Shown piece by piece: positions 8,672 to 40,120 of a DNA stretch of 64,000 nt; position 1 is the first letter of the stretch; the number at the start of each line of letters is the position of its first letter. The stretch lies in assembly GCF_005885675.1 (NCBI RefSeq), contig NZ_VANR01000003.1, positions 372,001-436,000 on the forward strand, in the 5' to 3' direction. The stretch comes from Polaribacter aestuariivivens. Lineage in GTDB: Bacteria; Bacteroidota; Bacteroidia; Flavobacteriales; Flavobacteriaceae. Below the pieces are notes generated by a model that had not been told where the DNA came from, searched no databases, and saw only the letters and a list, made by a program, of their open reading frames with translations. The translations under genes were made by a program, and so were the position numbers.

Positions 8672-8692
8672 TATCCTGTACTATGTGGTTGC
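8672..8692 (-). promoter_or_regulatory. Putative regulon operator upstream of rhaEW
   Basis: The plus strand reads TATCCTGTACTATGTGGTTG. This matches the motif found before the PUL transcription units (ATCCTGYnCT plus a weaker GTT-type half-site 10 bases on). It lies 53 bases upstream of the chosen ATG. On the coding strand it is followed by TTTG about 20 bases before TATAATAC, so it sits just upstream of a possible -33 element. Confidence 0.6.
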
Positions 8693-8780
8693 TATTTATT
8701 TTTTAATAAAATAGTAGAATGAAATAAGTTTCTACTTGGTTATTCTTTTAAAATCTATTAATTTGCTTCTAATAATAATT

Positions 8781-8798
8781 ATTCGCTTATTTGCGAAT
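8781..8798. promoter_or_regulatory. Palindromic candidate operator of the GntR regulator
   Basis: ATTCGC, a six-base spacer (TTATTT) and GCGAAT form a perfect 6+6 inverted repeat 21 bases before the regulator's ATG. GntR proteins bind such palindromes, so autoregulation is plausible. A lone GCGAAT half-site occurs at 8643-8648, near the rhaEW promoter. Confidence 0.45.
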
Positions 8799-8819
8799 TA
8801 AATAACTTTTATATCATAT

Positions 8820-9860
8820 ATGTTCAGCTTTATTTCTATTGATGAAAATTCTAGGATTCCAAAATACCAACAAATTGTAAATGAAATTATAGCAAATATT
8901 TCTAATGGTAATTTAACTATAGATCAAAAAATACCTTCTATAAATAAATTTAGCGAAGAATTTTATCTTTCTAGAGATACTGTAGAAAAAGCATATAATA
9001 TTTTAAAAGAACGTAATATTATATCTTCAATAAAAGGGAAAGGATATTATATTACACGAACTAAATTAATATCTAAAGTTAATATTTTATTTTTAATTAA
9101 TAAGTTAAGTTCTTATAAATTAAGAATTTATAATTCTTTTATAGATAATATTGGAGCAAATTCTCATACAGATTTGCACATCTATCATTGTGATGAATCT
9201 TTGTTTTTAAATTTAATTGCCAAAAACAAATCTGCATATGATTATTACGTTATAATGCCACACTTTATAACTGAGCAATTAACCCATATTAGTTACACAG
9301 ATGAAGTTTTAAAATCTTTGAAGAAAATACCAAAAGAAAAACTAGTTATTTTAGATAATCTAAAAGAAGGTATGGAAGGTGGTGCTGTAGAGATTTTTCA
9401 AGATTTTGAAAATGATATATACAACGCCTTAAACGAAGCGTATCCAAAGATTAAAAAATATGAAAATCTAATGCTGTTTTACCCAAGAAAAACAGTTTAC
9501 CCTTATCCTAAGAGAATACTACATGGTTTTAGAAAATTTTGTGTAGAGCATGACATAAAATTTGAAATTCTAGAAGAAGTTTATGAAGATATTATTATTA
9601 AAAAGGGAGATTTATTTGTCACCATTGAAGAGTCTGATTTGGTAAACTTGGTAAAACAAATAAGAGAAGATGAATTTATTTTAGGTGAAGAGGTTGGTGT
9701 AATATCTTATAATGATACGCCATTAAAAGAACTTTTAGGAATAACAGTAATTTCTACTGATTTTAAAGTCATGGGTGAAACTGCAGCAAAAATGATTGTT
9801 GAAAAGAAAAAAGGGCAATTTAAAGTGCCTTTTAACTTTATTGATAGAAAGTCTTTATAA
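8820..9860 (+). CDS. GntR-family transcriptional regulator with LacI-like ligand domain
   Basis: This 346-residue regulator has an N-terminal GntR winged helix-turn-helix (about residues 8-78, with IPKYQQIVNEIIANISNGNL and SRDTVEKAYNILKERNII). A sugar-binding-protein-like domain of the LacI/periplasmic-binding type follows (about 90-346) and ends in a GETAAKMI-type segment. It is divergent from the rhamnose operon with 200 bases between starts, so its likely ligand is rhamnose or a pathway intermediate. Its stop lies one base from the end of the convergent sulfatase gene. Whether it also controls the PUL through the shared CCTG motif cannot be told from the sequence. Confidence 0.88.
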   Translation: MFSFISIDENSRIPKYQQIVNEIIANISNGNLTIDQKIPSINKFSEEFYLSRDTVEKAYNILKERNIISSIKGKGYYITRTKLISKVNILFLINKLSSYKLRIYNSFIDNIGANSHTDLHIYHCDESLFLNLIAKNKSAYDYYVIMPHFITEQLTHISYTDEVLKSLKKIPKEKLVILDNLKEGMEGGAVEIFQDFENDIYNALNEAYPKIKKYENLMLFYPRKTVYPYPKRILHGFRKFCVEHDIKFEILEEVYEDIIIKKGDLFVTIEESDLVNLVKQIREDEFILGEEVGVISYNDTPLKELLGITVISTDFKVMGETAAKMIVEKKKGQFKVPFNFIDRKSL

Positions 9861-9861
9861 T

Positions 9862-11292
9862 TTATCTTTCTGGGAAATAATAATCAAACCATTGTTTTTC
9901 ACTTTCTCTAGTTTTAAAGTTTATTCCTTTAATTTTTAGAGTTTCAGACCATTTTATAAGTTTGTTTTTTAATCTTTCTGCAATTTTGGGATGTTTTTTA
10001 ATGAGATTATTTTGCTCGTGTTCTTTTGTAGTGACATTAAATAAAAATTCTCTTTCACCAAACTTTAAATACTTATAATTGCCTTCTCTTATAGCAGATT
10101 GAGACCAAAATCTCCAAAATAAAGAAGTATGAGGTTCTCCTTTTTTTTCACCTGTTAAAAAAGGAATTAAATCTACACCGTCTAAATTCTCATCTTTAGC
10201 TAAACCAGCAACAGAAATGGCTGTTGCAGCAGCATCTAAAGAAATTACTTGCTTGTCATAAACTTTTCCTTTTGGTAAAACTGCTGGCCAGTTCACAATA
10301 AAAGGCACTCTTATTCCTCCTTCAGAGAGCATTCCTTTTTCGCCAACAAAAGGCGTATTTAAAGAACCATCCCAAGCACCACCTTTAAAAGAAATGGGTT
10401 TGTCTTCTTTGTAAATTTTTAAAGGAGCACCATTGTCACTTATAAAAAATATAAGTGTGTTTTTATCAATTTTTAAATCTTTTAAAGTTTGTTTTATTTC
10501 TCCAACACCATCATCTATTGCAGACAACATCGCTAAAGCATGTTTTCTTCTTTCTGGCATTTTATCTGGAAATCTATCCAAGTATTTTTTAGTAGCTTCT
10601 AATGGAACATGAGGAGCAAAATACGGAAGATAAAAAAAGAAAGGTTTTTCTTTATTTTTTTTGATAAAAGTAACTGCAGCTTGTGTTTGAATTTCTAAAC
10701 GATACCCTTTTTCTTTTACTATTTTGGGCTGTATTTTAGCTCCATTCTCTAATGTATAATTTGCGTTATAGGTATTAATATAACCTTCAAACGCATAATC
10801 GAAACCTCTATTAAAACTAGCATAAGGAAGTTTTAATTTTTGTGGAATACGTATTTTTCTTTTTTCTGTTTGATTGTATTCTGGCAGATGTTTTTTTATC
10901 CATTCTAAAGAACCAGGATTAGGATCTAAATGCCATTTACCAGCCATTCCTGTTGTGTAACCTGCTTTTTGTAATCTTTGTGAAATTAGAATTTCTTCTA
11001 AAGGAAGTGGAATTGTTCCATTTTGATCTAATCCAAATTTTTGTTGATACCTTCCTGTAAGTAAACCTGCTCTAGAAGGAATACATTGTGGTGCAGTAAT
11101 ATAACCAGAAGTCATTCTTACGCCATTTTTAGCCAACAAATCTATATTTGGTGTTTTGATATCTTCTACAGCACCATTTACACCAATATCTGCATAACCA
11201 TGATCATCTGTAAAAATGATAATAATATTTGGTTTTTTTTGAGCAAAAAGACTCGAACATGCAAATAGAAACAGTAGTAGTTTTATCTTCAT
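9862..11292 (-). CDS. Secreted S1-type sulfatase (CIPSR)
   Basis: This is a 476-residue formylglycine-dependent sulfatase. After a signal peptide ending in SLFAQ it has the metal-binding FTDDHGYADIG (residues 27-37), the modification motif CIPSR with the target cysteine at residue 70, GKWHLD, and the metal-binding SDNGAP. I chose the ATG at 11292 rather than a TTG at 11307. The signal peptide begins at MKIKLLLFLF, and the TTG falls inside a terminator stem. It should remove sulfate esters from a polysaccharide in the periplasm or outside the cell. It is the leftmost gene of the PUL and converges on the GntR gene. Position specificity cannot be read from the sequence. Confidence 0.9.
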   Translation of the reverse strand: MKIKLLLFLFACSSLFAQKKPNIIIIFTDDHGYADIGVNGAVEDIKTPNIDLLAKNGVRMTSGYITAPQCIPSRAGLLTGRYQQKFGLDQNGTIPLPLEEILISQRLQKAGYTTGMAGKWHLDPNPGSLEWIKKHLPEYNQTEKRKIRIPQKLKLPYASFNRGFDYAFEGYINTYNANYTLENGAKIQPKIVKEKGYRLEIQTQAAVTFIKKNKEKPFFFYLPYFAPHVPLEATKKYLDRFPDKMPERRKHALAMLSAIDDGVGEIKQTLKDLKIDKNTLIFFISDNGAPLKIYKEDKPISFKGGAWDGSLNTPFVGEKGMLSEGGIRVPFIVNWPAVLPKGKVYDKQVISLDAAATAISVAGLAKDENLDGVDLIPFLTGEKKGEPHTSLFWRFWSQSAIREGNYKYLKFGEREFLFNVTTKEHEQNNLIKKHPKIAERLKNKLIKWSETLKIKGINFKTRESEKQWFDYYFPER

Positions 11293-11305
11293 AATTGTTG
11301 GTATC

Positions 11306-11336
11306 AAAAAAGCCTTGAAATTTTCAAGGCTTTTTT
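11306..11336 (-). terminator. Rho-independent terminator just upstream of a sulfatase start
   Basis: AAAAAAGCCTTGAAA is followed almost directly by its complement, with six T residues at the minus-strand end. It follows the 55-residue gene (stop at 11354) and lies only 14 bases before the sulfatase ATG at 11292. It could act as a leaky terminator or attenuator for the sulfatase. Confidence 0.75.
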
Positions 11337-11353
11337 GATTAGTATCTAGATTT

Positions 11354-11521
11354 TTAAAAACCAGTTCCAGGAGCTTCTGGACTTTGTGCTTGCGCTTTTT
11401 GTGGGTTTAAAATCATATAGGTTCCTAATGCAGTTAAAGCTGCATATTTACCATAATTTCCTATTTTTTTAATTGCTTCTTTACGAGAAATTTCTGGTTT
11501 GTTTGTATTGTTGTTTTTCAT
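11354..11521 (-). CDS. Small 55-residue protein with Tat-like N-terminus
   Basis: A short reading frame with an ATG at 11521 encodes 55 residues. The N-terminus contains NKPEISRKEAIKKIG followed by a weakly hydrophobic stretch (YAALTALGTYMIL) and a tail KAQAQSPEAPGTGF. This layout resembles the Tat-signal-like small proteins (SRR/SRK-x-x-x-K-K plus an AQA cleavage site) common in Flavobacteriia, though only one arginine is present and the second is lysine. It starts 25 bases after the stop of the T9SS protein gene and is followed by a strong terminator, so it is probably the second gene of that transcript. Its function is unknown. Confidence 0.6.
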   Translation of the reverse strand: MKNNNTNKPEISRKEAIKKIGNYGKYAALTALGTYMILNPQKAQAQSPEAPGTGF

Positions 11522-11546
11522 CTTGAATCTATTTTAATTCTCGTTA

Positions 11547-13892
11547 TTATTCTAAAATTATTTTTTTGCTTAAACTTCCTGTTTCAGTTTGAAGTTTTAC
11601 AAGATAAATTCCAGCAGTTAAATCTGGTAAAGAAATATCTTTTGTTCCATTTGCATTAAAAGTGGTATTCACGATTTGCTTGCCTAAAACATTGTACAAT
11701 TGAAAAGTAGTTTTACCTTCCTCTAATCCTGCTATTCTAACTGTAGAATTAAGAGTTTTGTAGATTGAGATAGAGTTTAGTAAAACATTATCTGTACTTA
11801 AAACACTAGAGGCACTTGTATGCATGTAAAATCTTCCTGTTCCATTTTGTTTTGTGTCTAACACAACAGTATGGTTAGATGAAGTATCTAGTAAAGTGTA
11901 AGTTTTTGCAACTCTATCTTCTAAGTATACTTGTATTCCGCTTGGTAAATTTTGTACGTCTGCTTTAAAAGTAATTTCTTTTCCTGCGTCTGCGATAACA
12001 CCAACAGGAACTATCATACTCTCATAATTGGAATCTGGCAATGCTTGTCTCTCAAAACTAATACCTGTATTATCTTCTAATATCTCTGTATAGACACTAA
12101 AGTTTGAAGATATTCCTGTAAACAGTCCAATATCATTACCAGGATCTAAGCCTAATTTATTATTCGAGTTGTAACTAACTTCTGTTTGTCTTGTTTTATT
12201 TCCGTCAAAAATTGATAAGCTAATTTTTGGAGCATTGCTTTTGTAAAACGTTACACCAGTTTGGTGACTTTGTAAAGATTCTGCAAATACAAAATTGCCT
12301 GCAGTAGAGTTTGCTGCGTTTACAAAGAATCCTTGTCCAGGAGCAATATAATCTGTACCAGCCAAAGAGGTATACAAACCGTTTCCTGAGTCTAAAGAAG
12401 AGTCCCAAACATATACAGTTTGAAAAGCACCACTTAAGCTACTAGTGTTATTTGCAACTAACTCAGAAACTCTTATGTAAGAAGGAAAAGGATTTCCAGA
12501 TAAATTCCAATTATTGGCACTTTGATTTATTGTAGTAGTTACATCTGCATCTGGAAAAGAACCTATAAACGCATAAATTTCTTCATCTTTTGCAGATTCA
12601 TAAGAAACTTTTCTTGTTGAAAAACCTTCTCCTGAATTAAATGTTTCAGCAGGAGAACCTGCTTGAAAATATGTCCAATCTCCATCTGCGTCTGTTGTAT
12701 TATCATATAATGAAATAGCTCTATTTGCTGCTGTACCAGTTCCAATATAGTTTATCTCAATCCAATCATTATCGTAAGTTTCTCCAGAAACAGGAGAAGA
12801 TAATAAATGCCATTCAAGAGGTGCTCCAGTTGGATCTGTAGTAATAGTATTATAAGTAAAATTTCCTGAAATTGTTATTGTACTTTTTGCGATTAAACTT
12901 GCTCCATCATAAACAGAAACATTATTTGCTGTAAATGTTCCATTAACAGTTAATGATGCATTTTCTTGAACAATAATATTATTGGCAGATATTGCTCCTG
13001 AAGCTACAGGGTCATTAGCTGTTCCATCATCTATAATAACGTCATTAGACCCAGAAGGTACTCCACTAGGGCTCCAGTTTGATGCTGTATCCCAGTCTGA
13101 TGTTGTACCTAACCAAGTTTTTGTAGTGGCAGTTGTAGATCTTGCAGCCTCAACTCCAAAATCCATAATTGTTTTTATTTGTTCTGCACTTAAAAGTTCT
13201 GAAGTGATTAAAAAATCATCCATATCTCCTAAAATTGCTTGTCCAGTTTGACCTGCTTTTTGCGTTCCAAGGACTAAAGCCTCTTGAGCATTTCTAGGAG
13301 ATGTTGTATATGTTTGCTGAGTGTCTAAAACTCCATTTATATAGTAGCTCCAACTTTTTGCAGTTACATCATGGACAACAGCGACATGATACCAACGCTC
13401 TTTATTAACTCTAGTATTTGAATATATTTCTGAACCTGGAATAGAAGTTACAAATTCATTAGCTAAAGAAGATGAATTACTTCTAAAACGTAATTGAGGT
13501 TGTCCATCATCAGCAGTTCCAGCAGCAGCTCCATTATTCATATCAAATATTGTTGTAATTTGACTAGCTGCTAAATTTTCGCTATTATCAATTCTTACCC
13601 ACAAAGCGATACTTACATCATTAGATGTATTGTACACTGTATTTCCAGAACTTTCGTAAGAAGAATTATTAAAAACCCCATACTGCCCGAATTTACCCTC
13701 AGTTGAGCTATAAGAAATAGGCGTTGTTGCTGAACCTGTAGTTTGTTGTGCGAATGTAAAATTACCTTTTGCATCTACTAAATCACCCTCAAAATCTAGG
13801 TACATTAAAATATTTGCATCATTAATTGTTTGAGCATTTACAAAATGAAAACTAAATGTAAACACCATCAGTAAAAGTATTTTTCTCATCAT
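11547..13892 (-). CDS. T9SS-secreted LamG-domain protein
   Basis: This is a 781-residue secreted protein. A signal peptide ending in NAQ is followed by a LamG/concanavalin-like domain (about 25-245, with ALWVRIDN and ERWYHVAVVHD). Next is a short segment with TKTWLGTTSDWDTASNWSP (about 257-290) of the kind found before beta-rich repeats, then a long beta-rich region. The C-terminal T9SS type A sorting domain covers about the last 80 residues and ends in GIYLVKLQTETGSLSKKIIL. No catalytic motif is recognisable, so it is likely a surface glycan-binding protein of the PUL. Its own operator-like site lies 97 bases upstream, at 13989. Confidence 0.8.
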   Translation of the reverse strand: MMRKILLLMVFTFSFHFVNAQTINDANILMYLDFEGDLVDAKGNFTFAQQTTGSATTPISYSSTEGKFGQYGVFNNSSYESSGNTVYNTSNDVSIALWVRIDNSENLAASQITTIFDMNNGAAAGTADDGQPQLRFRSNSSSLANEFVTSIPGSEIYSNTRVNKERWYHVAVVHDVTAKSWSYYINGVLDTQQTYTTSPRNAQEALVLGTQKAGQTGQAILGDMDDFLITSELLSAEQIKTIMDFGVEAARSTTATTKTWLGTTSDWDTASNWSPSGVPSGSNDVIIDDGTANDPVASGAISANNIIVQENASLTVNGTFTANNVSVYDGASLIAKSTITISGNFTYNTITTDPTGAPLEWHLLSSPVSGETYDNDWIEINYIGTGTAANRAISLYDNTTDADGDWTYFQAGSPAETFNSGEGFSTRKVSYESAKDEEIYAFIGSFPDADVTTTINQSANNWNLSGNPFPSYIRVSELVANNTSSLSGAFQTVYVWDSSLDSGNGLYTSLAGTDYIAPGQGFFVNAANSTAGNFVFAESLQSHQTGVTFYKSNAPKISLSIFDGNKTRQTEVSYNSNNKLGLDPGNDIGLFTGISSNFSVYTEILEDNTGISFERQALPDSNYESMIVPVGVIADAGKEITFKADVQNLPSGIQVYLEDRVAKTYTLLDTSSNHTVVLDTKQNGTGRFYMHTSASSVLSTDNVLLNSISIYKTLNSTVRIAGLEEGKTTFQLYNVLGKQIVNTTFNANGTKDISLPDLTAGIYLVKLQTETGSLSKKIILE

Positions 13893-13988
13893 AATTGTAT
13901 AATAAAATTATTAATTAGTTAATTATCAGAACCTTAATATAATTTAAAAAAGTCTATTTTCAAATATAGAAATATGAGTAGTTCTTAC

Positions 13989-14009
13989 TATCCTGCTCTA
14001 TCTTGTTGG
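13989..14009 (-). promoter_or_regulatory. Putative regulon operator upstream of the LamG protein gene
   Basis: The plus strand reads TATCCTGCTCTATCTTGTTG. It matches the regulon motif with the second half-site CTTGT spaced 10 bases from CCTGC, and lies 97 bases before the minus-strand start at 13892. Confidence 0.6.
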
Positions 14010-14030
14010 TAGATTTTAGAAATATTAAAA

Positions 14031-14050
14031 CCATAAAGAACAGGACAGTT
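14031..14050 (+). promoter_or_regulatory. Putative regulon operator upstream of a plus-strand sulfatase
   Basis: CCATAAAGAACAGGACAGTT is the reverse-oriented regulon motif (AACAGGACA against the consensus ACAGGATA). It lies 48 bases before the ATG at 14098 and 22 bases from the divergent copy at 13989. This is a weaker match than the others. Confidence 0.5.
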
Positions 14051-14097
14051 GTTTTTTATAAATGGCTTATGTTTATCTTCCAAACAAATCAACTAAA

Positions 14098-15759
14098 ATG
14101 AAAAATTTTTGTCTTTTATTATTTTCTATCATCTTTATTTTTTCTTGTAAAAAGCAAGAAGTTAAAAAACCGAATATCATTTTTATTTTGGCAGATGATT
14201 ATGGTATTGTAGATACGCAAGCATATGCTGCTAAATTCTTAAATACTTCAATTGATAGCACTTTTTATGAAACACCAAATATTAACAAATTAATGAATGA
14301 GGGTGTCTCTTTTTCACAAGCGTATGCGAATCAATTGTGTTCGCCAACAAGAGCGAGTATTTTAACGGGGAAATATGCTGCAAGAGTCGGTTTTACTACA
14401 GCAATGCCTCATAGAAATACCTATTACAATCAAAATTTAGAGATACCAGAAGGTTATTATGCTAATGATGTTTTAGAGCATAAAGACAATATTTTAATAG
14501 AACAACCTCATATAAACGGAACTTCTAATTCTGCTGTTCCTACAGGAAAACATGCACAAACTAATTTAGATGAATTGTCTATAGCAGAAGCTCTAAAAGA
14601 TTATGAATCTGCCTTTATTGGTAAATGGCATATTGGTGGTTTTGGCGCAAAGGGTTTTCAACCTAAAGACAATGGATTTAAAACATTAGCTTATTTTGAT
14701 GGTGGAGGTTCTACTTATTTCAACTGGGTAAATGGTTGGAACCAAAAAACAAAAGCGCGTTTTCCTAAAATGCCACAAGAAGAGTGGGAAATAGGTGATG
14801 CTGGAAATGTAACAGGAGAAAAATATTTAACAGACGATTTAACCATTCAAGCTCTAAATTATATCGAAGAAAAGGCAAAAAACAAAAACAAACCTTTCTT
14901 TTTATATTTTTCTCATTTTGCAGTTCATTCTCCTTATCAAGGCAAAAAAGACGAAATTGATTATTTCAATTCAAAAAAAACAAGAGGTTTTAACGGACAA
15001 GACAATGCTATTTATGCTTCTATGATTAAAAGTATGGACAGATCTGTAGGCAAAATTTTAGACAAATTAAAAGAGACTGGAATTGAAGAAAATACTTTAG
15101 TTGTTTTTATGTCTGACAATGGAGGAATTGATGGTGAAATTACTCCAGATGGAAATGGAACTGAAAATTATCCTTTTTTAGGTGGAAAAGCATGTTTAAC
15201 AGAAGGTGGAATTAGAGTGCCACTTGTATTTCGTTGGAAAGGAAAAATTGAAGGTGGAAAATGGGTAGATACTGCTGTAGATTGTTCAGATATTTTTCCT
15301 ACTATTTTAGAAGCTGCTGGTTATGATGCTAAGCAAATTGTTACTGAAAATAATTTGGATGGTGAGAGTGTCATAGGATTACTATCAGATATTAAAAACG
15401 AAAGTAAGACCTATAAAAAAGACGCCCATTATTGGCATTACCCTTTTAATGTTATTTATAAAAGTCCTTACGATGGTCATGCGTTAACACCCCACTCAGC
15501 AATAAGAAAAGGAAATTTTAAATTGATTTTTGATTGGTATGGACGTTTGCATTTGTACGATATAGAAAAAGATCCTTTTGAGAAAAACGATTTATATACT
15601 ACAAACAAAGACCAAGGAGATGCTTTGTTTAAAGATTTGGTTACTTGGTTAGAGGAAAATGTAGACAAACGTTATTGGCCAAAATTAAATCCTGATTATA
15701 ATCCTGAAAAGGAAGTTAGAGATGTTCCTTTTAAAGATTTGATTGGTCAAAATGAATAA
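14098..15759 (+). CDS. S1-type sulfatase lipoprotein (CSPTR)
   Basis: This is a 553-residue sulfatase. A lipoprotein signal with cysteine 17 (IFSCKKQ) is followed by ILADDYG (metal ligands), CSPTRASILTG with the formylglycine cysteine at residue 81, GKWHIGG, and MSDNGG. The ATG at 14098 is preferred over one at 14062: the signal peptide begins at MKNFCLLLF, and the earlier ATG lies only 12 bases from the operator-like site. The gene stands alone on the plus strand, divergent from the LamG protein gene and convergent with the next sulfatase across a shared hairpin. It is likely a cell-attached desulfatase acting on PUL oligosaccharides. Confidence 0.9.
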   Translation: MKNFCLLLFSIIFIFSCKKQEVKKPNIIFILADDYGIVDTQAYAAKFLNTSIDSTFYETPNINKLMNEGVSFSQAYANQLCSPTRASILTGKYAARVGFTTAMPHRNTYYNQNLEIPEGYYANDVLEHKDNILIEQPHINGTSNSAVPTGKHAQTNLDELSIAEALKDYESAFIGKWHIGGFGAKGFQPKDNGFKTLAYFDGGGSTYFNWVNGWNQKTKARFPKMPQEEWEIGDAGNVTGEKYLTDDLTIQALNYIEEKAKNKNKPFFLYFSHFAVHSPYQGKKDEIDYFNSKKTRGFNGQDNAIYASMIKSMDRSVGKILDKLKETGIEENTLVVFMSDNGGIDGEITPDGNGTENYPFLGGKACLTEGGIRVPLVFRWKGKIEGGKWVDTAVDCSDIFPTILEAAGYDAKQIVTENNLDGESVIGLLSDIKNESKTYKKDAHYWHYPFNVIYKSPYDGHALTPHSAIRKGNFKLIFDWYGRLHLYDIEKDPFEKNDLYTTNKDQGDALFKDLVTWLEENVDKRYWPKLNPDYNPEKEVRDVPFKDLIGQNE

Positions 15760-15792
15760 AAAAAAGAGAAGCTAAATGGCTTCCCTTTTTTC
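15760..15792. terminator. Bidirectional terminator between convergent sulfatases
   Basis: AAAAAGAGAAGC, a short loop and GCTTCCCTTTTT form a stem with one A-C mismatch. It is A-rich on one side and T-rich on the other. It lies directly after the plus-strand stop (15759) and before the minus-strand stop (15799), so it can end both transcripts. Confidence 0.65.
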
Positions 15793-15798
15793 TTATAA

Positions 15799-17334: not shown

Positions 17335-17336
17335 GT

Positions 17337-18551: not shown

Positions 18552-18571
18552 AATAATGTTTGTTTTTAATT

Positions 18572-20059: not shown

Positions 20060-20132
20060 TTTTAAAAATCTAGTTTAAAAACCAAAATAGCTGTAAAAAA
20101 TATTTACAGCTATTATTAGTTTGATATATAGT

Positions 20133-21665: not shown

Positions 21666-21682
21666 AATATTATTTTTTAATT

Positions 21683-24976: not shown

Positions 24977-24996
24977 CATCCTGCTCTTTCTTGTTG
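24977..24996 (-). promoter_or_regulatory. Putative regulon operator upstream of susC
   Basis: The plus strand reads CATCCTGCTCTTTCTTGTTG. It is nearly the same as the copy at 13989 and has CCTGC and CTTGT spaced by one helical turn. It lies 61 bases before the susC ATG and downstream of the GH78 terminator. Confidence 0.65.
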
Positions 24997-25011
24997 TAGT
25001 ATTTTTTTCAC

Positions 25012-25047: not shown

Positions 25048-25067
25048 CAATGGAATAAACGATTTTC

Positions 25068-27845: not shown

Positions 27846-27940
27846 TGATTTCAAAAATTTTAATTGAAGATTATTTGAAGAATTCCTTGGTTTTACTTTA
27901 TTCTTTAGTTAACAATACTAGCTAGTTCTTGTAAAAACCC

Positions 27941-27960
27941 TATCCTGTACTATCCTTTTA
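27941..27960 (-). promoter_or_regulatory. Putative regulon operator upstream of GH78
   Basis: The plus strand reads TATCCTGTACTATCCTTTTA, with CCTGT and CCTTT spaced 10 bases apart. Its first 12 bases are identical to the rhaEW site at 8672. It lies 96 bases before the ATG at 27845. Confidence 0.65.
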
Positions 27961-28110: not shown

Positions 28111-28134
28111 CTCTATTTTGCTAATTTAGTAGGA

Positions 28135-30309: not shown

Positions 30310-30365
30310 ATTTATTTTTTTATTTATTAAGTGATAACAAGGCTATTGAAAAAGAAATAAAAATC

Positions 30366-30383
30366 TATCCTGCTCTGTCCTTA
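30366..30383 (-). promoter_or_regulatory. Putative regulon operator upstream of the triple-repeat protein gene
   Basis: The plus strand reads TATCCTGCTCTGTCCTTA, with CCTGC and CCTTA spaced by 10 bases. It lies 57 bases before the start at 30309. On the coding strand TAGCCTTG, close to the TAnnTTTG -7 consensus, lies about 30 bases after the site. Confidence 0.65.
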
Positions 30384-30396
30384 TTTTGTGAAATAA

Positions 30397-30945: not shown

Positions 30946-30950
30946 GTTTA

Positions 30951-32435: not shown

Positions 32436-32491
32436 AAGTTGAAAAGTTTATTTTTAATTGAAATTAAAGATACAGTTACAAAATTTATTGG

Positions 32492-32511
32492 GCATCCTGC
32501 TCTTGCACGTA
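32492..32511 (-). promoter_or_regulatory. Putative regulon operator, minus-strand copy of a divergent pair
   Basis: The plus strand reads GCATCCTGCTCTTGCACGTA. It matches the conserved half-site ATCCTGCTCT, with a weak second half-site. It lies 57 bases upstream of the minus-strand sulfatase start at 32435. Confidence 0.6.
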
Positions 32512-32516
32512 ATTTT

Positions 32517-32536
32517 ACAGGTTGGCACAGGATATG
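32517..32536 (+). promoter_or_regulatory. Putative regulon operator, plus-strand copy of a divergent pair
   Basis: ACAGGTTGGCACAGGATATG contains the direct repeat ACAGG-N5-ACAGG. It is 73 bases before the ATG at 32608 and only 5 bases from the oppositely oriented site for the minus-strand gene. Its first 18 bases are identical to the site at 34590. Confidence 0.7.
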
Positions 32537-32607
32537 ATAGTTAATGTTTGTAATCATTTTTGATTGACAATAATTACTTATAAAAAACAAGTAACACAAG
32601 ACTTAAA

Positions 32608-34578
32608 ATGAAACTAAAAATAAAATTGTTTTTCTACTTTATTTTATGCGGTCAAATTGTTTTGGCACAAAATAAAAAACCTAATATAATTCTAATTGTA
32701 GCAGATGATTTAGGGTTTAGTGACGTAAGCTCTTTTGGAGGAGAAATACCAACTCCAAATATTGATAATCTAGCGGAAAACGGAACGCGTTTTACAAAGT
32801 TTTACGTGTCACCAATGTGTGTTACCAGTAGAGTTGCAATTATTGCGGGATTAGAATTTCAAGCTGCTGGCAGAAACAATTTTCCAAAAGGAGAAAGTAT
32901 CGCAAAACTTATGAGAGCAGAAGGTTATACTACTAGTTTAGTTGGGAAAAATCACGGAATGAATAAACTTAAAATAGGAAATAAGAATACCGATTTTGGT
33001 TTTGATCATTTTTATGGATTTACAGGTGGACAAATAAATAGTTTTACAGGAAAAGGGAATGCAAAATGGCAAGATGATGGTAAAATATTTCCTCATACAG
33101 ATTTACCAAAAGACTTTTATGCCACTACAAACTTTACAGATTATGCTATTAAGTATATGGACGAAGCTATTAAGAAAGATCAACCTTTTTTTAGTATGGT
33201 TTCTTACAATGCGCCTCATAGTCCATTAGATGCTCCAGAAAAAAATGTACGTAAGTTTTATGACCCAGAAAATAGGATAAATGTATATAAAAAAGGATGG
33301 AATATACTACGTAAGGAACGTTTTGAACGAATGAAAAAAATGGGAATTATAGATGAAAACACAAAGCTTCCAGAGTTGGGTGTAGAAATTCCAGATTGGG
33401 ATTTGTTGCCAGAAAACTCGAATAGACATTGGGAGATTCAAAAAGACTTTGAGGCATTATCTAGAAGTGCTTATGCAGGAATGGTAGACAATATGGATGA
33501 AAATATTGGTAGAATTACTGCTTTTTTAAAAGACCCAAACAAAGATGGGAACACAGAAGATAGTCAATTACAAAATACACTCATTATTTTTATTTCAGAT
33601 AATGGTGGTTGTTATGCAGGTTTGCACACCAACAGAAAAGCATTGCCTTGGAGTCAGCAAAACAGAGGAGCAGGTTTTACAACAAATTATGGTTGGGCAG
33701 CTTTAAGTAATACACCTTTTTCTTCTTACAAACATGGCAGTAAAGAAGGTGCCATTAGATCTCCAATGATTGTGCATTGGCCAAAAGGTTTGCAATTAGA
33801 GAAAAATTCCATCAACAAAGAAATGATTAGAATTTGGGATTTGTATCCAACTTTTTTAGAATTAGCTGGTGGAAAATACCCAAAAGATAAAAAAGAAATT
33901 CAAGGAAAAAGTATTTTGCCTTTACTTAAAAATAAAAAATTTGAAGAGGAAAAATTTTTCGTTTCAACATTTTATCGTTCTAAAGGAATTATTAAAGGAG
34001 ATTGGAAATTGGTTAGTTTTTATGACAGTCCGTTTGAATTGTATAATCTAAAAAAAGATCCAACCGAAACAGAAAATGTTCGTGTAAAGCATCAAATTAA
34101 ATACAAAGAATTACTAAAAGCTTGGAACCATTATGCAAAAAAACATGAATTTGAAAAAAACAAGCAATGGAACATGCCTACAGGAAATAAAAAAAGAAAT
34201 TTTGGGTATGATAGAGTAAAAAATATGATGGTAAAGGCATCTCCAGAATTTATGGAAGATAATGTTTCTATCAACCAAAAATTAAGTTTCACTTTTAAAG
34301 GTGAAGCAAGTTATGCGAACACAAAAGGCAGAAAAATAAGATTGCAGAAATATGGAAGCCAAGAAATTTTATGGTCTAAAGACTTAGATTTGAATAGTGA
34401 TTTTGAAGGCGAGAAAGAAATTGTTTTTAAAGATTTTCCTACTTTAGAACCTAATACACATTATTACATAACTTGGGATGCTGGTTGGGTGAAAATAAAA
34501 CAAAACGGAAAGTTTAAACCTATTCAACCTGTTAGAGAAAGTGCTTTTGCTTATAGGTTTAGAACAGGATCTAACTAA
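32608..34578 (+). CDS. Secreted S1-type sulfatase with unusual CVTSR motif and C-terminal extension
   Basis: This is a 656-residue protein with the sulfatase fold: a signal peptide ending in VLAQ, LIVADDLGFSDVS with metal ligands, and ISDNGG. The activation motif reads C71-V-T-S-R, with threonine where proline or alanine is usual, followed by VAIIAGLEF instead of the common LTG-x-Y. A histidine near residue 116 (GKNHGMN) replaces the GKWH form. About 120 residues past the sulfatase core form a beta-rich extension ending in HYYITWDAGWVKIKQNG. It has its own operator-like site. Whether formylglycine is formed at this motif is uncertain, so activity is not assured. Confidence 0.82.
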   Translation: MKLKIKLFFYFILCGQIVLAQNKKPNIILIVADDLGFSDVSSFGGEIPTPNIDNLAENGTRFTKFYVSPMCVTSRVAIIAGLEFQAAGRNNFPKGESIAKLMRAEGYTTSLVGKNHGMNKLKIGNKNTDFGFDHFYGFTGGQINSFTGKGNAKWQDDGKIFPHTDLPKDFYATTNFTDYAIKYMDEAIKKDQPFFSMVSYNAPHSPLDAPEKNVRKFYDPENRINVYKKGWNILRKERFERMKKMGIIDENTKLPELGVEIPDWDLLPENSNRHWEIQKDFEALSRSAYAGMVDNMDENIGRITAFLKDPNKDGNTEDSQLQNTLIIFISDNGGCYAGLHTNRKALPWSQQNRGAGFTTNYGWAALSNTPFSSYKHGSKEGAIRSPMIVHWPKGLQLEKNSINKEMIRIWDLYPTFLELAGGKYPKDKKEIQGKSILPLLKNKKFEEEKFFVSTFYRSKGIIKGDWKLVSFYDSPFELYNLKKDPTETENVRVKHQIKYKELLKAWNHYAKKHEFEKNKQWNMPTGNKKRNFGYDRVKNMMVKASPEFMEDNVSINQKLSFTFKGEASYANTKGRKIRLQKYGSQEILWSKDLDLNSDFEGEKEIVFKDFPTLEPNTHYYITWDAGWVKIKQNGKFKPIQPVRESAFAYRFRTGSN

Positions 34579-34589
34579 CAAAAAATTCC

Positions 34590-34609
34590 ACAGGTTGGCA
34601 CAGGATAGG
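34590..34609 (+). promoter_or_regulatory. Putative regulon operator upstream of the GH78-like/GH99-like operon
   Basis: ACAGGTTGGCACAGGATAGG shares 18 consecutive bases with the site at 32517. It lies 11 bases after the preceding stop and about 73 bases before the preferred ATG at 34683. Confidence 0.7.
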
Positions 34610-34682
34610 AAAAAATATCTAAAAAATTAGTTTTACATCTATCCTAAAAATGAATAAAAAAAATATTTCAACTTATAAAAAA

Positions 34683-36440
34683 ATGAAAAAATCATTACCA
34701 ATTTTATTGATTCTATGCTCTATTAAAATGACATTATTTGCGCAATTACCTCCGGTTTTTAGCGCAGAAGATAAAGATAGAGCAACTCATTCAGAAATGG
34801 TGAGAACTTATTTAACTCCAAATAGAATTGTTTGGAAATCAGATGATTCTGGCAAGTTCATTCAAAACGAACAAACACTATTAGAAAAAGGAAATGGACA
34901 AGTTGCCGTAAACGATAAAAACCTGTTTAGACTAATTAGCACAGAAGAGCATAAACCTGGTATTATGCTAGATTATGGAAAGGAAATTCATGGTGGTGTA
35001 AAAATCTCAATGGGAATAAGACCTTCCAAAACGCCATTAAAATTAAGAATTCGTTTTGGGGAATCTGTATCAGAAGCAATGTCTAATATTGGTGGGAAAT
35101 TTAATGCAACAAACGAACACTCATTGCGTGATTTTATAGTTGAAGTTCCTTGGTTAGGTTCTATAGAAGTTGGTGAAACTGGTTTTAGATTTATTAGAAT
35201 TGATGTTGTAGAAGGAGGAGAGAATGCTCCAATAAAATCTGTTGAAGCTGCTTTTGTTTATAGAGATTTAGATTATATAGGTTCTTTTGAAAGCAACAAT
35301 AAAAGATTAAATGATATTTGGATGACTGGTGCATATACTGTTCATTTAAACATGCAAAATTATCTTTGGGATGGTATTAAAAGAGACAGATTAGTTTGGG
35401 TGGGAGATATGCATCCAGAAGTAATGACCATAAATACCGTTTTTGGTAAAAATAGTATTGTACCAAAAAGTTTAGACTTGGCAAGAGATCAACATCCTTT
35501 ACCACAATGGATGAATACTATCAGTTCATATTCTATGTGGTGGTTAATTATCCATAAAAACTGGTACGATTATCATGGAGATTTAGCGTATTTAAAAGAG
35601 CAAGAAACCTACATGATTGCTTTATTAGACCAGTTAAGCACATTTATAGATGATGACAATAAGGAAATTTTAAATGGAGGTCGTTTTTTAGATTGGCCAA
35701 CAAGTACAGATCCAAAGGCAGTTCATGCAGGTTTACAGGCGATGATGATTATGACTTTTGATGCAGGTGCTGAAATGATGGAAACACTTGGTAGAAATGA
35801 TTTAAAAAAGAAATATCAAAAAATAAGCAAACGCTTAAAAAAACACATTCCAGAAGGCAATACTTCTAAGCAAGCAGCATCTTTAATGGTATTGGCAGAT
35901 TTGGCAAAAGCTAAAAAAATTAATACAGAAATTTTAAAGAAAGACGGTGTGCAAAACATGTCTACTTTTTATGGTTATTATATTTTAGAAGCTATGGCTA
36001 AAGCCGATGATTATCAAGGAGCAATAGATGTGATTAGCGAATATTGGGGAGGAATGTTAGATTTAGGAGCTACTACCTTTTGGGAAGATTTTAATATTGC
36101 AGAGGGCAAAATTAGTGGAAGAATTGATGAGCTTTCTGTAGAAGATAAAAGTGACATTCATACGGATTTTGGAGCTTTTTGTTATGTTGGTTTGCGTCAT
36201 AGTTTAGCTCATGGTTGGGCTAGTGGGCCTACTTCTTGGTTAACACAATATGTTTTGGGAGTTAATGTTTCTGATGGTGGAAATACAGTAACTATAAAAC
36301 CACACTTAGGAAATTTAGAGTATGTTAATGGAACTTTCCCTACAAAATTCGGAATTTTAAAAATTAGCCATACTAAAAATGCAAACGGAAAAGTAACTAC
36401 AAAAATTGATGCTCCAAAAGGTTTAGACGTGAAGCAATAA
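34683..36440 (+). CDS. Short GH78-like glycosidase with divergent catalytic motif
   Basis: This is a 585-residue exported protein (signal peptide MKKSLPILLILCSIKMTLFAQ minus the last base of context; an ATG at 34650 is an alternative start). The C-terminal two thirds form an (alpha/alpha)6 barrel like GH78, with a beta-sandwich before it. The region equivalent to the GH78 signature reads DGIKRDRLVWVGD (near residue 232), so the DER of rhamnosidases becomes DR. HGWASGPTSWLTQYVLG lies near the end. It begins a four-gene operon (this gene, GH99-like, mutarotase, sulfatase). It may be an alpha-L-rhamnosidase or a related glycosidase of different specificity. Confidence 0.78.
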   Translation: MKKSLPILLILCSIKMTLFAQLPPVFSAEDKDRATHSEMVRTYLTPNRIVWKSDDSGKFIQNEQTLLEKGNGQVAVNDKNLFRLISTEEHKPGIMLDYGKEIHGGVKISMGIRPSKTPLKLRIRFGESVSEAMSNIGGKFNATNEHSLRDFIVEVPWLGSIEVGETGFRFIRIDVVEGGENAPIKSVEAAFVYRDLDYIGSFESNNKRLNDIWMTGAYTVHLNMQNYLWDGIKRDRLVWVGDMHPEVMTINTVFGKNSIVPKSLDLARDQHPLPQWMNTISSYSMWWLIIHKNWYDYHGDLAYLKEQETYMIALLDQLSTFIDDDNKEILNGGRFLDWPTSTDPKAVHAGLQAMMIMTFDAGAEMMETLGRNDLKKKYQKISKRLKKHIPEGNTSKQAASLMVLADLAKAKKINTEILKKDGVQNMSTFYGYYILEAMAKADDYQGAIDVISEYWGGMLDLGATTFWEDFNIAEGKISGRIDELSVEDKSDIHTDFGAFCYVGLRHSLAHGWASGPTSWLTQYVLGVNVSDGGNTVTIKPHLGNLEYVNGTFPTKFGILKISHTKNANGKVTTKIDAPKGLDVKQ

Positions 36441-36470
36441 TCAATATTAATTCATTTTAAAAACCAAATA

Positions 36471-38249
36471 ATGAAATCCTTGAAAAAACTTGCTTTCTTA
36501 TATTTTATATCGAGTGTTTTTTTTGTGAAAGCTCAAGACAATGTCAAAACTCAGCAGTTACAAAATTATAACACAGATAATTGGGTAGCTACAGATGCTC
36601 TAGGCAGAGAAACAGTAACTTTTGATGTTGCAGGTCCAGTTAAAAAGGATAAAAAAGTAGGTGTTTTTTATTACATATGGCATGGGTATCACAGCAAAAA
36701 AGTTTATGATATTACCAATATCTTAAAAGACCCTAAAGGAAAAAGAAAATGGGGTCCAAAAGGCAAGTTTCATTTTTGGGGAGAACCAGAACAAGGTTAT
36801 TACAATGCAAATGACCCTTGGGTTTTACGAAGAGATTTACAGATGCTTACAAATGCGAAGGTAGATTTTATCTATTTAGACGTTACCAATCATTTCATCT
36901 ATCCAGAAACCGTAAAAGCATTATTTGAAATGGGAAAAAAAATGCGTTCAGAAGGCATTCCTACGCCAGATATTACTTTTACCACCAACTCTAAAAGTGG
37001 ACTTACAGTTACCAAAATCTATAACGAATTTTACAAAAAAGGTTTGTATAAAGACCAATGGTTTTTGTGGGATGGTAAACCAGTAATAATGGCGAATCCA
37101 AAAGATCCAAAACTTACCAAAAAAGCACGCGAGTTTTTTACCATAAAATACAGTTGGGCTTGGACTAAAACAAACGAAAATCCAAATCACTGGCAGTGGG
37201 TAGATACAACGCCTCAAGATTATGGTTGGAGCAAAAGCCCAGATATTCCAGAACAAATTCCAGTTTCTGTTGCAGGACATCCTGTAGAATTAGGACATGG
37301 CTTATATGGCACAAGTAGATCTAATGGAAAACAACCTAAAGTAAACAAATATTACGTTGCACCAATTACTGGAGAGGGAGCTCATTTTCAAGAGCAATGG
37401 GATAGAGCTTTAGAAGTAAATCCAGAAATAGTGATGGTAACACAATGGAATGAATGGCTTGCACAACGTTTTATTTGGGATGATAAATTAAAACATAAAG
37501 GCTATGCAGGAAGGCCTATTAAAATAGGAGACTCTTATTTTGTAGATGCATTCACAGAAGAATTTAACAGAGATATGGCTCCAATGAAAGGAGGTCATAC
37601 AGATAATTATTACTATCAGTTGGTTTCTAATATTAGAAAATTTAAAGGAATGAAACCTCCTGTAAAATATACTCAAAAAAGTACTATTAAAATTGATGGA
37701 AATTTTGAAGATTGGCAAGATGTGCAACCAGAGTTTTATGATCCTACAGGAGATACTATGCATAGAGATTTTAAAGGTTATGATCCTAACACAAATTATA
37801 AAAATAAAACAGGTAGAAATGATATTATTTCTGCAAAAGTAGGTTTGAGCATAAAAGATGTTTTCTTTTATGTAAAAACACAAGAAAAATTAACTAGCTA
37901 TAAGGACGATAAATGGATGTTACTCTTTATTGATACTGATAAAAATAGTAATACAGGTTGGGAAGGTTATGAATATGTGGTGAATTATGAAATAAAATCT
38001 TCAAAAAAATCAACTTTAAAAAAGTGGAATGGAGTAATATGGGAAAATGTTGGAAGTGTAACTTATAGGGTTAAAGGCAATGAGCTAGAATTATCTGTAT
38101 TAAAGGATAATCTCAATTTAAAAGAAAATATAGATTTTTATTTCAAATGGGCAGATAACCCGATTGAATTAAAAGATGTAACAACATTTTTTATGAACGG
38201 AGATACTGCTCCAGACAGACGTTTTAAGTATCATTTTAAAACAAATTAA
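36471..38249 (+). CDS. GH71/GH99-like glycosidase with CBM9-like C-terminal domain
   Basis: This is a 592-residue exported protein with a signal peptide ending in VKAQ. Residues about 60-375 look like a TIM-barrel of the GH71/GH99 type: VGVFYYIWHGYH near residue 63, and VTQWNEWLAQRF near residue 322, where the glutamate in WNEW is the expected acidic residue. Residues about 400-592 begin IDGNFEDWQDV and resemble the CBM9/DOMON-like beta-sandwich. GH99 enzymes cut alpha-mannosidic bonds internally; here the substrate is unknown and could be an internal linkage of a rhamnose-rich glycan. The stop codon directly abuts the mutarotase ATG. Confidence 0.7.
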   Translation: MKSLKKLAFLYFISSVFFVKAQDNVKTQQLQNYNTDNWVATDALGRETVTFDVAGPVKKDKKVGVFYYIWHGYHSKKVYDITNILKDPKGKRKWGPKGKFHFWGEPEQGYYNANDPWVLRRDLQMLTNAKVDFIYLDVTNHFIYPETVKALFEMGKKMRSEGIPTPDITFTTNSKSGLTVTKIYNEFYKKGLYKDQWFLWDGKPVIMANPKDPKLTKKAREFFTIKYSWAWTKTNENPNHWQWVDTTPQDYGWSKSPDIPEQIPVSVAGHPVELGHGLYGTSRSNGKQPKVNKYYVAPITGEGAHFQEQWDRALEVNPEIVMVTQWNEWLAQRFIWDDKLKHKGYAGRPIKIGDSYFVDAFTEEFNRDMAPMKGGHTDNYYYQLVSNIRKFKGMKPPVKYTQKSTIKIDGNFEDWQDVQPEFYDPTGDTMHRDFKGYDPNTNYKNKTGRNDIISAKVGLSIKDVFFYVKTQEKLTSYKDDKWMLLFIDTDKNSNTGWEGYEYVVNYEIKSSKKSTLKKWNGVIWENVGSVTYRVKGNELELSVLKDNLNLKENIDFYFKWADNPIELKDVTTFFMNGDTAPDRRFKYHFKTN

Positions 38250-38564
38250 ATGATGAGGAAGGCATTTAAAATGAAGTTATATTCTAATGAGAAAGAAGAG
38301 TATATAAAAAGGCACAATCCTATTTGGCAAGAATTGCAGGAGGTTTTAACATCTCATGGAGTTTCAAACTATAGTCTTTTTTTGGATGAAGAAACCAATA
38401 TTTTATTTGGTTATGCAGAAATTGAAAACGAACAAAAATGGCACCAAATAGCTGAAACAGAAATTTGTAAAAAATGGTGGAAACATATGTCTGATATTAT
38501 GAAAACAAATCCAGATAACAGCCCAAAATCAATAAACTTAGAAGAGGTTTTTCACATCAACTAG
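38250..38564 (+). CDS. rhaM: L-rhamnose mutarotase
   Basis: This is a 104-residue cytoplasmic protein with the RhaM layout: AFKMKLYSNEKEEYIKRHNPIW with the conserved histidine at residue 22, NYSLFLDEETNILFGYAEIE, and KKWWKHMSDIM. It interconverts the alpha and beta anomers of L-rhamnose, giving the isomerase its substrate. Its ATG follows the TAA of the GH99-like gene without a gap, implying translational coupling. Finding it inside the glycosidase operon is direct evidence that the PUL releases L-rhamnose. Confidence 0.93.
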   Translation: MMRKAFKMKLYSNEKEEYIKRHNPIWQELQEVLTSHGVSNYSLFLDEETNILFGYAEIENEQKWHQIAETEICKKWWKHMSDIMKTNPDNSPKSINLEEVFHIN

Positions 38565-38581
38565 AAAACAACAAAGTAGTA

Positions 38582-40078
38582 ATGAAATCAATAAAATTCA
38601 CAAGTATATTAATAACAATTTTAGTTTTTTATTCATGTAAAAAAGAAATTGTAGAAGTAGAAAAACAAACATCAAAAAGACCAAATATTATCTTTTTAAT
38701 GGACGATCAACATAGGTTTGATGCTCTTGGAATGATTAATAAACAAGTAATTACACCAACATTAGATAGTTTGGCAAAAGAAGGTGTTTTTTACAGTCAA
38801 GCAGTTTGTCAAGCGCCTATGTGCGTACCAAGTAGAAACTCTATGATGTTGGGTTTGTATCCAAATCAAAATGGAGTGTATAGAAATAGTGATGGTATAA
38901 AAGACGAAAACCTACCTGTAAAAACAATGGCAGAATATTTTAAAGAAGCAGGTTATGAGACTGCAGGTTTTGGAAAAACACATTGGGGAAAATATAGAAC
39001 AAATACCAGAGGTTTTGAAACAAGATACACTTCAGAAATTAAAGAAAATGGCAGTATTACTATGCTAGAAATGAATCCTGAAGCAAAGAAAAAATACGAC
39101 GATGAAATCGCAGATATGGGTCCAGGTGAAGAGAATAATTTAGGTTATTTAGGTTTTACAAGTAAATTAGAAGAAGATGAACATAGAGATGGCTGGATTA
39201 CCAAACAAGTTTTAAATTACATCAACAATCGAGAAGACGAAAGGCCTTTGTTTCTATACTTGTCTTATATGAAACCTCACGCAGGCCATAATGTGCCAAA
39301 AGGATATGAAGATTTATATGATGCAGATACTATAAAATATGCAGAACAACCCAATTGGGATAAAGATAAATCTCCACATTCAAAAGGAGTAAACAGAAGA
39401 GATATGTATGTGAATTACTGGAAAAATGCTTCTGAAAAAGAATGGCAATTAATGACAATGCGTTACTATGCAAATGTAACTTGGATAGATGACATGATGG
39501 GAAGAACCTTAGGTGCTTTAAAGAAAAAAGGATTATTAGAAAATACGTTAATCGTGTATACTTCAGATCATGGAGAAATGTTAGGTGAACGATACTATAA
39601 ATTTAACAAATACAACTTGTATGATGCAAGTGTAAGAATTCCAATGATGCTATCTGGAACAGCATTACCTAAAGAAATTAAAAGAAATTCTATAGACAGT
39701 TTATCTGCAGAAAATACAGATTTACTTCCCACTCTTTTAGATTTTGCAAAAATAAAAAAAGATAAAAATTTGTTAGGTGAAAATCTATTCTCAAACAATA
39801 GAAATCAAGCAACCTTTTCAGCACTTCATGAGAAAAAAAATGAAGCTGCTTTTATGTGGAGAACTCCAAACTATAAGTTGATTTTAGTGTTTAATCGTAA
39901 AGAAAATGCAGTTAATTATACTGAAAAAGACATCATCACAGGAGAATTTTTTAACTTAAAAGAAGATCCAAAAGAATGGGAGAACTTATACAATAATCCT
40001 AAAATTATGGAAATACAAAAAAAGTATAAAAAGGCTTTAATTGCATACCTTAACAAGCAAGAAATTTTGGTGAAATAA
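38582..40078 (+). CDS. S1-type sulfatase lipoprotein (CVPSR)
   Basis: This is a 498-residue sulfatase. It has a lipoprotein signal (cysteine 19 in VFYSCKKE), FLMDDQHRFDALG with metal ligands, CVPSRNSMMLG with the target cysteine at residue 81, FGKTHWGKY where other family members have GKWH, and TSDHGEMLGE. The DQHR/SDHGEM pattern matches the S1 branch that includes glycan exo- and endo-sulfatases. It closes the four-gene plus-strand operon, 17 bases after the mutarotase. The position of the sulfate cannot be read from sequence. Confidence 0.9.
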   Translation: MKSIKFTSILITILVFYSCKKEIVEVEKQTSKRPNIIFLMDDQHRFDALGMINKQVITPTLDSLAKEGVFYSQAVCQAPMCVPSRNSMMLGLYPNQNGVYRNSDGIKDENLPVKTMAEYFKEAGYETAGFGKTHWGKYRTNTRGFETRYTSEIKENGSITMLEMNPEAKKKYDDEIADMGPGEENNLGYLGFTSKLEEDEHRDGWITKQVLNYINNREDERPLFLYLSYMKPHAGHNVPKGYEDLYDADTIKYAEQPNWDKDKSPHSKGVNRRDMYVNYWKNASEKEWQLMTMRYYANVTWIDDMMGRTLGALKKKGLLENTLIVYTSDHGEMLGERYYKFNKYNLYDASVRIPMMLSGTALPKEIKRNSIDSLSAENTDLLPTLLDFAKIKKDKNLLGENLFSNNRNQATFSALHEKKNEAAFMWRTPNYKLILVFNRKENAVNYTEKDIITGEFFNLKEDPKEWENLYNNPKIMEIQKKYKKALIAYLNKQEILVK

Positions 40079-40100
40079 ACTCCTTATAAATAGTAGTTTT

Positions 40101-40120
40101 ACAGGTAACAGCAGGATGCT
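40101..40120 (+). promoter_or_regulatory. Putative regulon operator and promoter of the G8 protein gene
   Basis: ACAGGTAACAGCAGGATGCT is a plus-oriented copy of the motif. TTTG at 40123-40126 and TACATTTG at 40149-40156 follow with a 22-base spacer, near the Bacteroidetes TTTG/TAnnTTTG pattern. The ATG is at 40196. Confidence 0.6.

Follow-up and report, generated by a model that had tools for sequence, protein, structure and literature searches.

Published regulators of rhamnose catabolism belong to the AraC, DeoR and LacI families, and the word GntR is absent from the paper that describes them (PMC3870299). In Bacteroides, the rhamnose catabolic regulator RhaR is an AraC-family activator with a direct-repeat motif and a single published target operon, and the motifs of RhaR and of hybrid two-component systems (HTCS) are direct repeats about 21 bp apart (PMC3870299, PMC3878776). 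The AraR subfamily of the GntR family, with AraR of Bacillus subtilis, fuses a GntR winged helix to a LacI/GalR-type sugar domain, acts on sugar and polysaccharide genes, and is described for Firmicutes (arabinose, xylose, galactose) (PMC4494728). We analyzed a 64-kb stretch of Polaribacter aestuariivivens (contig NZ_VANR01000003.1, positions 372,001 to 436,000), called the window, in which ten copies of an 18-bp direct repeat precede a rhamnose catabolic operon and nearly all transcription units of a polysaccharide utilization locus (PUL). Judged from sequence, these ten sites are probably the operators of one regulon, read by a regulator encoded at 8820-9860 that has the AraR-like architecture and would act as a rhamnose-responsive activator.

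AraR operators are palindromic, whereas the repeat found here is direct, with a 10-bp period and a fixed distance from the -7 box, and it lies before rhamnose genes of a member of the Bacteroidota. Bacteroides RhaR differs from the proposed regulator in protein family, in its 21-bp period and in its target, which here includes a sulfatase-rich PUL. DeoR-type RhaR regulators use imperfect direct repeats of 10-11 bp, although they are of the DeoR family and occur in four taxonomic groups that are unnamed in the source text (PMC3870299). GntR domains that read direct repeats have a precedent in NanR, FarR, NagQ, GabR and TauR, which belong to the FadR, HutC and MocR subfamilies and read other repeats (PMC4494728, PMC5320631). 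Bacteroides ManR, a GntR regulator, likewise serves a monosaccharide, and extracellular enzymes and a SusC/SusD system are part of the regulon predicted for it; however, that monosaccharide is mannose, the ManR motif was sought as a palindrome (PMC3878776), and ManR is likened here by description. Direct repeats read by GntR proteins of other subfamilies, and a GntR regulator with a predicted SusC/D-containing regulon, were already known. Neither a GntR-type rhamnose regulator in Bacteroidota nor this composite promoter was found in a search of titles and abstract openings with subscription journals mostly outside it, and the available parts of PMC12125979, PMC5698469 and PMC5507952 contain no such regulator.

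A composite promoter element

In gene orientation the element was an 18-bp direct repeat with a 10-bp period, ACAGKATAGT.RCAGGATR (also written ACARGnnAGnRCAGGATR). The original prediction had described ten copies of ATCCTGYnCT arranged as a 10-base direct repeat, and column counts of 84 sites agreed that the half-sites match as a direct repeat and not as a GntR-type palindrome. All ten sites exist. The word ATCCTGYnCT is the reverse complement of the real element. It is exact in six of the ten sites, and the four plus-strand copies have one mismatch. The word alone is weak evidence, because 31 matches at up to one mismatch were present in the window where 16.0 were expected, and exact copies also occur within genes at 1577, 29801 and 34561. 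The full 18-bp element is far beyond chance. A matrix was built from 71 sites of other genomes and no window site, with sites starting ACGGTA or ACGGCA (the common rhaD form) excluded; since the consensus strings used to choose these sites took their inspiration from window sites and loose-pattern sites, the matrix is independent of the window sequences but not of the idea. By this matrix the ten reported sites were the top ten of the window (16.6-26.6; the eleventh scored 10.2), and all were intergenic. Twenty dinucleotide shuffles gave 0-3 positions with a score of at least 10.

Alignment of the sites revealed a second block, TAnnTT.G, which begins exactly 20 bp past the repeat and had been overlooked in the original prediction. 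At offset 20 the letters T, A, T and T were kept in 62, 67, 65 and 70, respectively, of the 77 sites outside the window, and exact TAnnTTTG occurred there 14 times, in comparison with three times at most at any other offset. In the window, eight of the ten sites had TA at offset 20 (binomial 2e-07), and the remaining two retained the TTTG part. The 49 motif-positive rhaD promoters, nearly all from other genera, gave the same picture for TAnnTT (offset 20, 42; next commonest offset, 6). TAnnTTTG was found at offset 20 with some letters varying, and TAnnTTtG is the -7 box of the Bacteroidota housekeeping sigma factor. By the usual geometry of such promoters, the repeat, which lies 20 bp before the -7 box and always in one direction, covers the place of the -33 element. 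From 39 bp before to 130 bp after the site start, no further conserved element above 0.25 bits was found beyond the repeat and the -7 box. When 39 promoter-like sequences without the motif were looked at for TTTG at -33, no clear -33 signal was seen. Within 250 bp of rhaD, 50 sites were on the gene strand (three of them after the start had been moved) and 2 on the opposite strand.

In the 3.17-Mb genome, the site pattern at up to two mismatches gave 26 matches, including nine of the ten window sites, while a reversed-pattern control gave 9. The composite of site and -7 pattern gave nine exact matches, eight of which were window sites, and its control gave 1. In the genome scan proposed with the original prediction, matches thus concentrated at these promoters. 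The loose pattern at one mismatch was nonspecific, matching 85 of 147 genomes and the controls too; the composite pattern resolves this, because two genomes without a regulator homologue, G077 and G115, dropped from 7 and 9 matches to 2 and 1. In 752 kb of stretches, RCAGGAT cores with at most three mismatches in the upstream half were intergenic in 64 cases and within genes in 4; with four mismatches the numbers were 13 and 6, and with at least five they were 25 and 132. Some copies in congeners are near-perfect repeats.

Co-occurrence with a GntR/LacI-type regulator clade

The gene at 8820..9860 (plus strand) is divergent from rhaD. Its product has a GntR winged helix at the N terminus (Pfam GntR, 1.5e-11, residues 15-78) and a LacI/GalR-type ligand domain at the C terminus (Peripla_BP_3, 7.2e-06, 26.6 bits, barely above the cut-off of 26.5). 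The AlphaFold model consists of a winged helix and a second domain, with a mean predicted local distance difference test score of 90.7 (minimum at residues 82-84, the linker) and a predicted template modelling score of 0.72. By Foldseek, the top matches of the model were mostly LacI-family regulators, the best being 2qu7, a putative regulator (E 7.4e-13); the fold of the second domain matched LacI, PurR, CcpA and RbsR among the top 50 Protein Data Bank (PDB) hits. A PDB sequence search found GntR domains, among them the DNA-binding domain of AraR (4egy, 1.3e-08). The predicted operator is a direct repeat and not the palindrome of the GntR type, and we infer its assignment to this protein. A flexible linker would let a symmetric dimer set its two winged helices in tandem.

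The association was examined in the best 80 of 587 rhaD relatives, nearly all from Bacteroidota (one, L211, is labelled Thalassovita). One locus without upstream sequence, L172, was dropped, leaving 79, and for L216, L217 and L227 inspection of the sequence led to a manual shift of the rhaD start, about 1 kb in the downstream direction. A site of score at least 17, which defined a motif-positive locus, was present in 50 of the 79 rhaD loci in comparison with 8 of 1471 random 350-bp windows of the same loci; the promoter count above is 49 because the site of L207 starts 16 bp before the match, beyond the stretch scanned there. A regulator of the clade was encoded in the genomes of 48 of the 50 motif-positive loci (42 in the locus, 6 elsewhere) but of only 4 of the 29 motif-negative ones (Fisher P = 2.9e-14, a value that overstates independence because the loci share ancestry). 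The six regulators encoded elsewhere showed 46-60% identity and the helix LSRDTVEKAY; for the seven genomes with the regulator outside the locus (these six and L221), assignment to the clade relied on identity (46-60%) and on the helix in place of the tree. Among the other 25 motif-negative loci, six genomes had no homologue at E 1e-15, and eighteen had only homologues of at most 45% identity (ten GntR in the locus, eight elsewhere); the genome of L229 was not searched and was counted among the 25 without a known regulator. For the ten loci with a non-clade GntR, no closer copy was found elsewhere in the genome, the best identities being 37-45%.

A tree of 65 GntR proteins, from which those shorter than 220 aa were excluded, had two parts: one of 49 rows, consisting of the complete set of 42 motif rows, three motif-negative rows and four reference rows, and another with ten motif-negative rows and six paralogues of 40% identity. 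The motif label changed 7 times on this tree, in comparison with 19.2 times in shuffles, and none of 500 shuffles was as low. The regulator of L197 (150 aa, 65% identity) was counted in the clade by identity only, because proteins of this length were left off the tree. In a survey of 147 genomes including that of the window, with a regulator homologue defined by at least 51% identity, three or more strict composite sites were present in 13 of the 16 genomes with a homologue (3-11 sites) and in none of the 131 others (none had more than 2). G043 has rhaD, no regulator homologue at E 1e-20 and 0 composite sites. The site in the rhaD-GntR intergenic region is kept in congeners, and a site also precedes rhaD in other genera. 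Within the genus and across other Bacteroidota, the motif tracks the GntR/LacI-type regulator clade, of which the window genome encodes one member only.

The original prediction had assigned the sites to an AraC-type or hybrid two-component regulator encoded elsewhere and had stated that no such regulator was in the window; the GntR regulator had been set aside because GntR sites are usually palindromes. No HTH_18 (AraC-type) match was found in the window. An AraC-type reader would accord with a direct-repeat site, and AraC-family genes number 15 in the window genome, among them a hybrid-sized one of 1311 aa. In six congeners, an AraC gene of such size lies about 4 kb away from a second relative of GntR type, and the rhaD loci L168 and L171 contain one as well. 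The period is 10 bp, however, not about 21 bp, and rhaD copies directly beside an AraC gene (L200, L213, and L137 in G026) are without the motif. In addition, G061 (99% complete) has eight composite sites but only two HTH_18 genes over the cut-off (L064 and L066, with 70% and 87% homologues in the window genome). The 80 rhaD loci were scanned with a model from 15 domains of the window genome. Neither linkage nor co-occurrence with the motif emerged from this survey, which covered part of the AraC genes, the homologues of L064 and L066 in motif-negative genomes lying outside it. The motif-positive loci L167, L168 and L171 combine a site and a GntR gene with an AraC-family gene farther away. On the spacing, the AraC-adjacent rhaD genes without the motif and the count in G061, the AraC/HTCS assignment was rejected as highly improbable among the AraC genes surveyed, and the statement about the window was likewise unsupported, the motif tracking the regulator at 8820-9860.

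Recognition helix and site letters tended to change together. Most clade members have the helix [LI][SA]R[DN]T[VI]EKAY with CAGGAT sites. Their ISRDT[IV]VRAY relatives (L173, L193, L194) have AACAGT/CATAAC or CAGAAC repeats, for example ACCTAACAGT.TCATAACAC and ACTGAACAGT.ACAGAACAG, still 20 bp from the -7 box, and the 40% paralogues (LSRDTVLxAF and similar, VLxAF-type) have a palindrome ahead of their own gene. Reading of this DNA by this helix would lead one to expect such covariation; the rule is loose, however. The covariation also bears on a further possibility, namely that an alternative sigma factor or another unlinked factor reads the element and that GntR co-occurs through regulating the same pathway. 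A fixed distance from the -7 box would fit such a factor, and co-occurrence is not binding; however, the -7 box is presumably of the housekeeping sigma type and the motif letters tend to vary with the GntR recognition helix, which makes this explanation very unlikely.

The sites of the 40% paralogues were also considered as further direct repeats, and this was rejected because AACTAGTA-CC-TACTAGTT is a palindrome. In L107-L120, a conserved palindrome of this type lies 12-21 bp from a -7 box before this second widespread GntR/LacI-type regulator.

Mode of action of the proposed regulator

The regulator is proposed to act as follows. Two winged-helix domains would bind the two tandem half-sites on one DNA face, over the -33 place, and the LacI-type domain would bind L-rhamnose or an early catabolite, whereupon RNA polymerase would be recruited. 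The effector, L-rhamnose or an early catabolite, is a guess from the target genes. With a cytoplasmic monosaccharide as signal, rhamnose catabolism and the whole sulfated-rhamnan PUL would thus be raised together. Given this regulator, activation is the probable mode, and is favoured because the spacing is fixed, the orientation is single and divergent units have separate sites.

The same regulator could instead act on the same sites as a repressor, keeping the -33 region blocked as long as rhamnose is absent, which is how AraR acts with arabinose. The architecture is that of the AraR subfamily, which regulates sugar genes in Firmicutes (PMC4494728), and the solved AraR structure is titled as a repressor. 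The 40% paralogues have palindromes that are probably autoregulatory, and most of these (10 of 14, at 19-21 bp) stand about as far from the -7 box as the regulon sites do, which weakens the geometric argument for an activator. However, these palindromes spread more widely (12-21 bp), whereas an exact 20-bp spacing and a single orientation in dozens of promoters suit contact with the polymerase, and each divergent unit has its own oriented site. We therefore regard repression as rather unlikely.

Besides the shared ancestry of the loci and the paralogue palindromes, several points weigh against a rhamnose-responsive activator of the GntR/LacI type. Typical GntR operators are palindromic, and the relatives AraR of Bacillus and FucR are repressors, so that it is only the geometry that speaks for "activator". 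No site was found before the regulator's own gene in the window. Two loci, L175 and L204, have the motif although their best homologues reach only 43% and 40% identity and have helices ending IVKAY and VVKAY. Conversely, L195, L199, L228 and L221 come with a clade regulator, yet the distal half of the site is poor there, with the proximal half and the -7 box retained, and composite matches number only 1-2 in three of the 16 genomes that encode the regulator. As for the helix, EKAY-type helices occur in distant homologues (37-44%) at L233, L239, L210 and L231 without a score-17 site, L190 (VRAY) has no site, and L175 combines CAGGAT with IVKAY.

The promoters analyzed may represent a wide Bacteroidota class in which tandem half-sites replace the -33 element and a GntR/LacI chimera, bound head to tail, acts as a sugar-dependent activator, while paralogues with other recognition helices read other repeats at the same spacing, so that a protein-DNA code could be read from sequence. 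Control of a PUL would then fall to a monosaccharide sensor in the cytoplasm and not to an oligosaccharide sensor in the membrane or periplasm. This reading as a whole has close to an even chance of being correct.

Transcription units of the locus and biological meaning

The rhamnose catabolic operon, the GntR-type regulator and the PUL together occupy positions 1188-44668. The operon (1188..8667, minus strand) encodes the RhaD aldolase/dehydrogenase, an isomerase, an FGGY kinase, a flavin mononucleotide (FMN) dehydrogenase and a transporter-like protein; it was identified by NCBIfam RhaD-type models above cut-off and by Pfam, and the match to the rhamnose isomerase model was 2.9e-151, yet below that model's curated cut-off. 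The PUL contains seven sulfatases, two rhamnosidase-type hydrolases, SusC/SusD, rhaM and a G8/CEMIP protein, and its substrate is likely a sulfated rhamnan.

All ten sites are oriented with the first gene of their unit, and none was found ahead of operon-internal genes in the window, both as predicted; the rhamnose operon and the PUL units have this signal in common. Each site has a -7 box at +20. Site 1 (8672..8689, minus strand, TAAATTCG, score 22.5) precedes the rhamnose operon, that is, rhaD (6514-8667) and the downstream genes. Site 2 (13989..14006, minus, TATATTTG, 26.6) belongs to a protein sorted by the type IX secretion system (T9SS; 11547-13892) and site 3 (14030..14047, plus, TATGTTTA, 18.6) to a sulfatase (14062-15759). 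The SusC/SusD/sulfatase genes at 15799-24916, taken as one operon, follow site 4 (24977..24994, minus, TAACATTG, 23.5). Also on the minus strand are site 5 (27941..27958, TAGTATTG, 24.2), before a GH78-type rhamnosidase (25068-27854), site 6 (30366..30383, TAGCCTTG, 22.5), before a T9SS/Big_2 protein (28135-30309), and site 7 (32493..32510, TATCTTTA, 16.7), before a sulfatase (30951-32435) and 30397-30945. The last three are on the plus strand: site 8 (32517..32534, 16.6), with a weak -7 box, CATTTTTG, before a sulfatase (32608-34578); site 9 (34590..34607, TAGTTTTA, 19.8), before a rhamnosidase-like gene (34650-36440), 36471-38249, rhaM (38250-38564) and a sulfatase (38582-40078); and site 10 (40101..40118, 19.7), before the gene of the G8/CEMIP-domain protein (40196-44668), where the -7 box at +20 is weak (GAAGTTTG) and a better one, TACATTTG, stands at +30. 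The distance from site end to listed open reading frame (ORF) start was 43-97 bp for eight sites, where 48-97 bases had been claimed; the mechanically called ORFs of rhaD and of the sulfatase at 14062 begin too early, and the first plausible ATG, at about 8619 and 14098, brings the distances near 50. The claim that every PUL unit is marked has one exception, the sulfatase at 9862-11307, whose upstream gap of about 240 bp has no site. This gene may not belong to the regulon, unless transcription reaches it by read-through from 11547-13892.

Several neighbouring or related loci were also observed. Next to the window, L071 (C7: 352001-372000) contains at 6833-18878 a PUL-like stretch with matches to a sulfatase, a SusC-like protein (two pieces) and a T9SS protein; no regulon site was found in this stretch at up to four mismatches. 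Tandem duplicated GntR regulators are present in G076 (C1: 340934-343485) and G040 (C1: 320177-322728) (L081, L125, L126). In G076, three tandem 10-bp units stand before the upstream copy (L081), on the same strand as that copy, which suggests that the gene is autoregulated in G076, though not in the window; of the G040 site, a part was seen. In G040, G046, G048, G076, G084 and G085, about 4 kb separate the second GntR relative (51-57%) from the DNA-binding domain of the AraC gene of hybrid two-component size, and the two may act together in another PUL. In G026, the second rhaD copy (C4: 192245-194344, L137), 89% identical and without the motif, adjoins an AraC-family gene (C4: 191565-191798), as if one enzyme had exchanged its regulator.

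If the proposed regulation is correct, the regulon would be predictable from one short composite pattern in many marine rhamnan/ulvan degraders and in Chryseobacterium, Lewinella, Cyclobacteriaceae and Dyadobacter. The need of such PULs for an HTCS, SusR or extracytoplasmic function (ECF) regulator would not be general.

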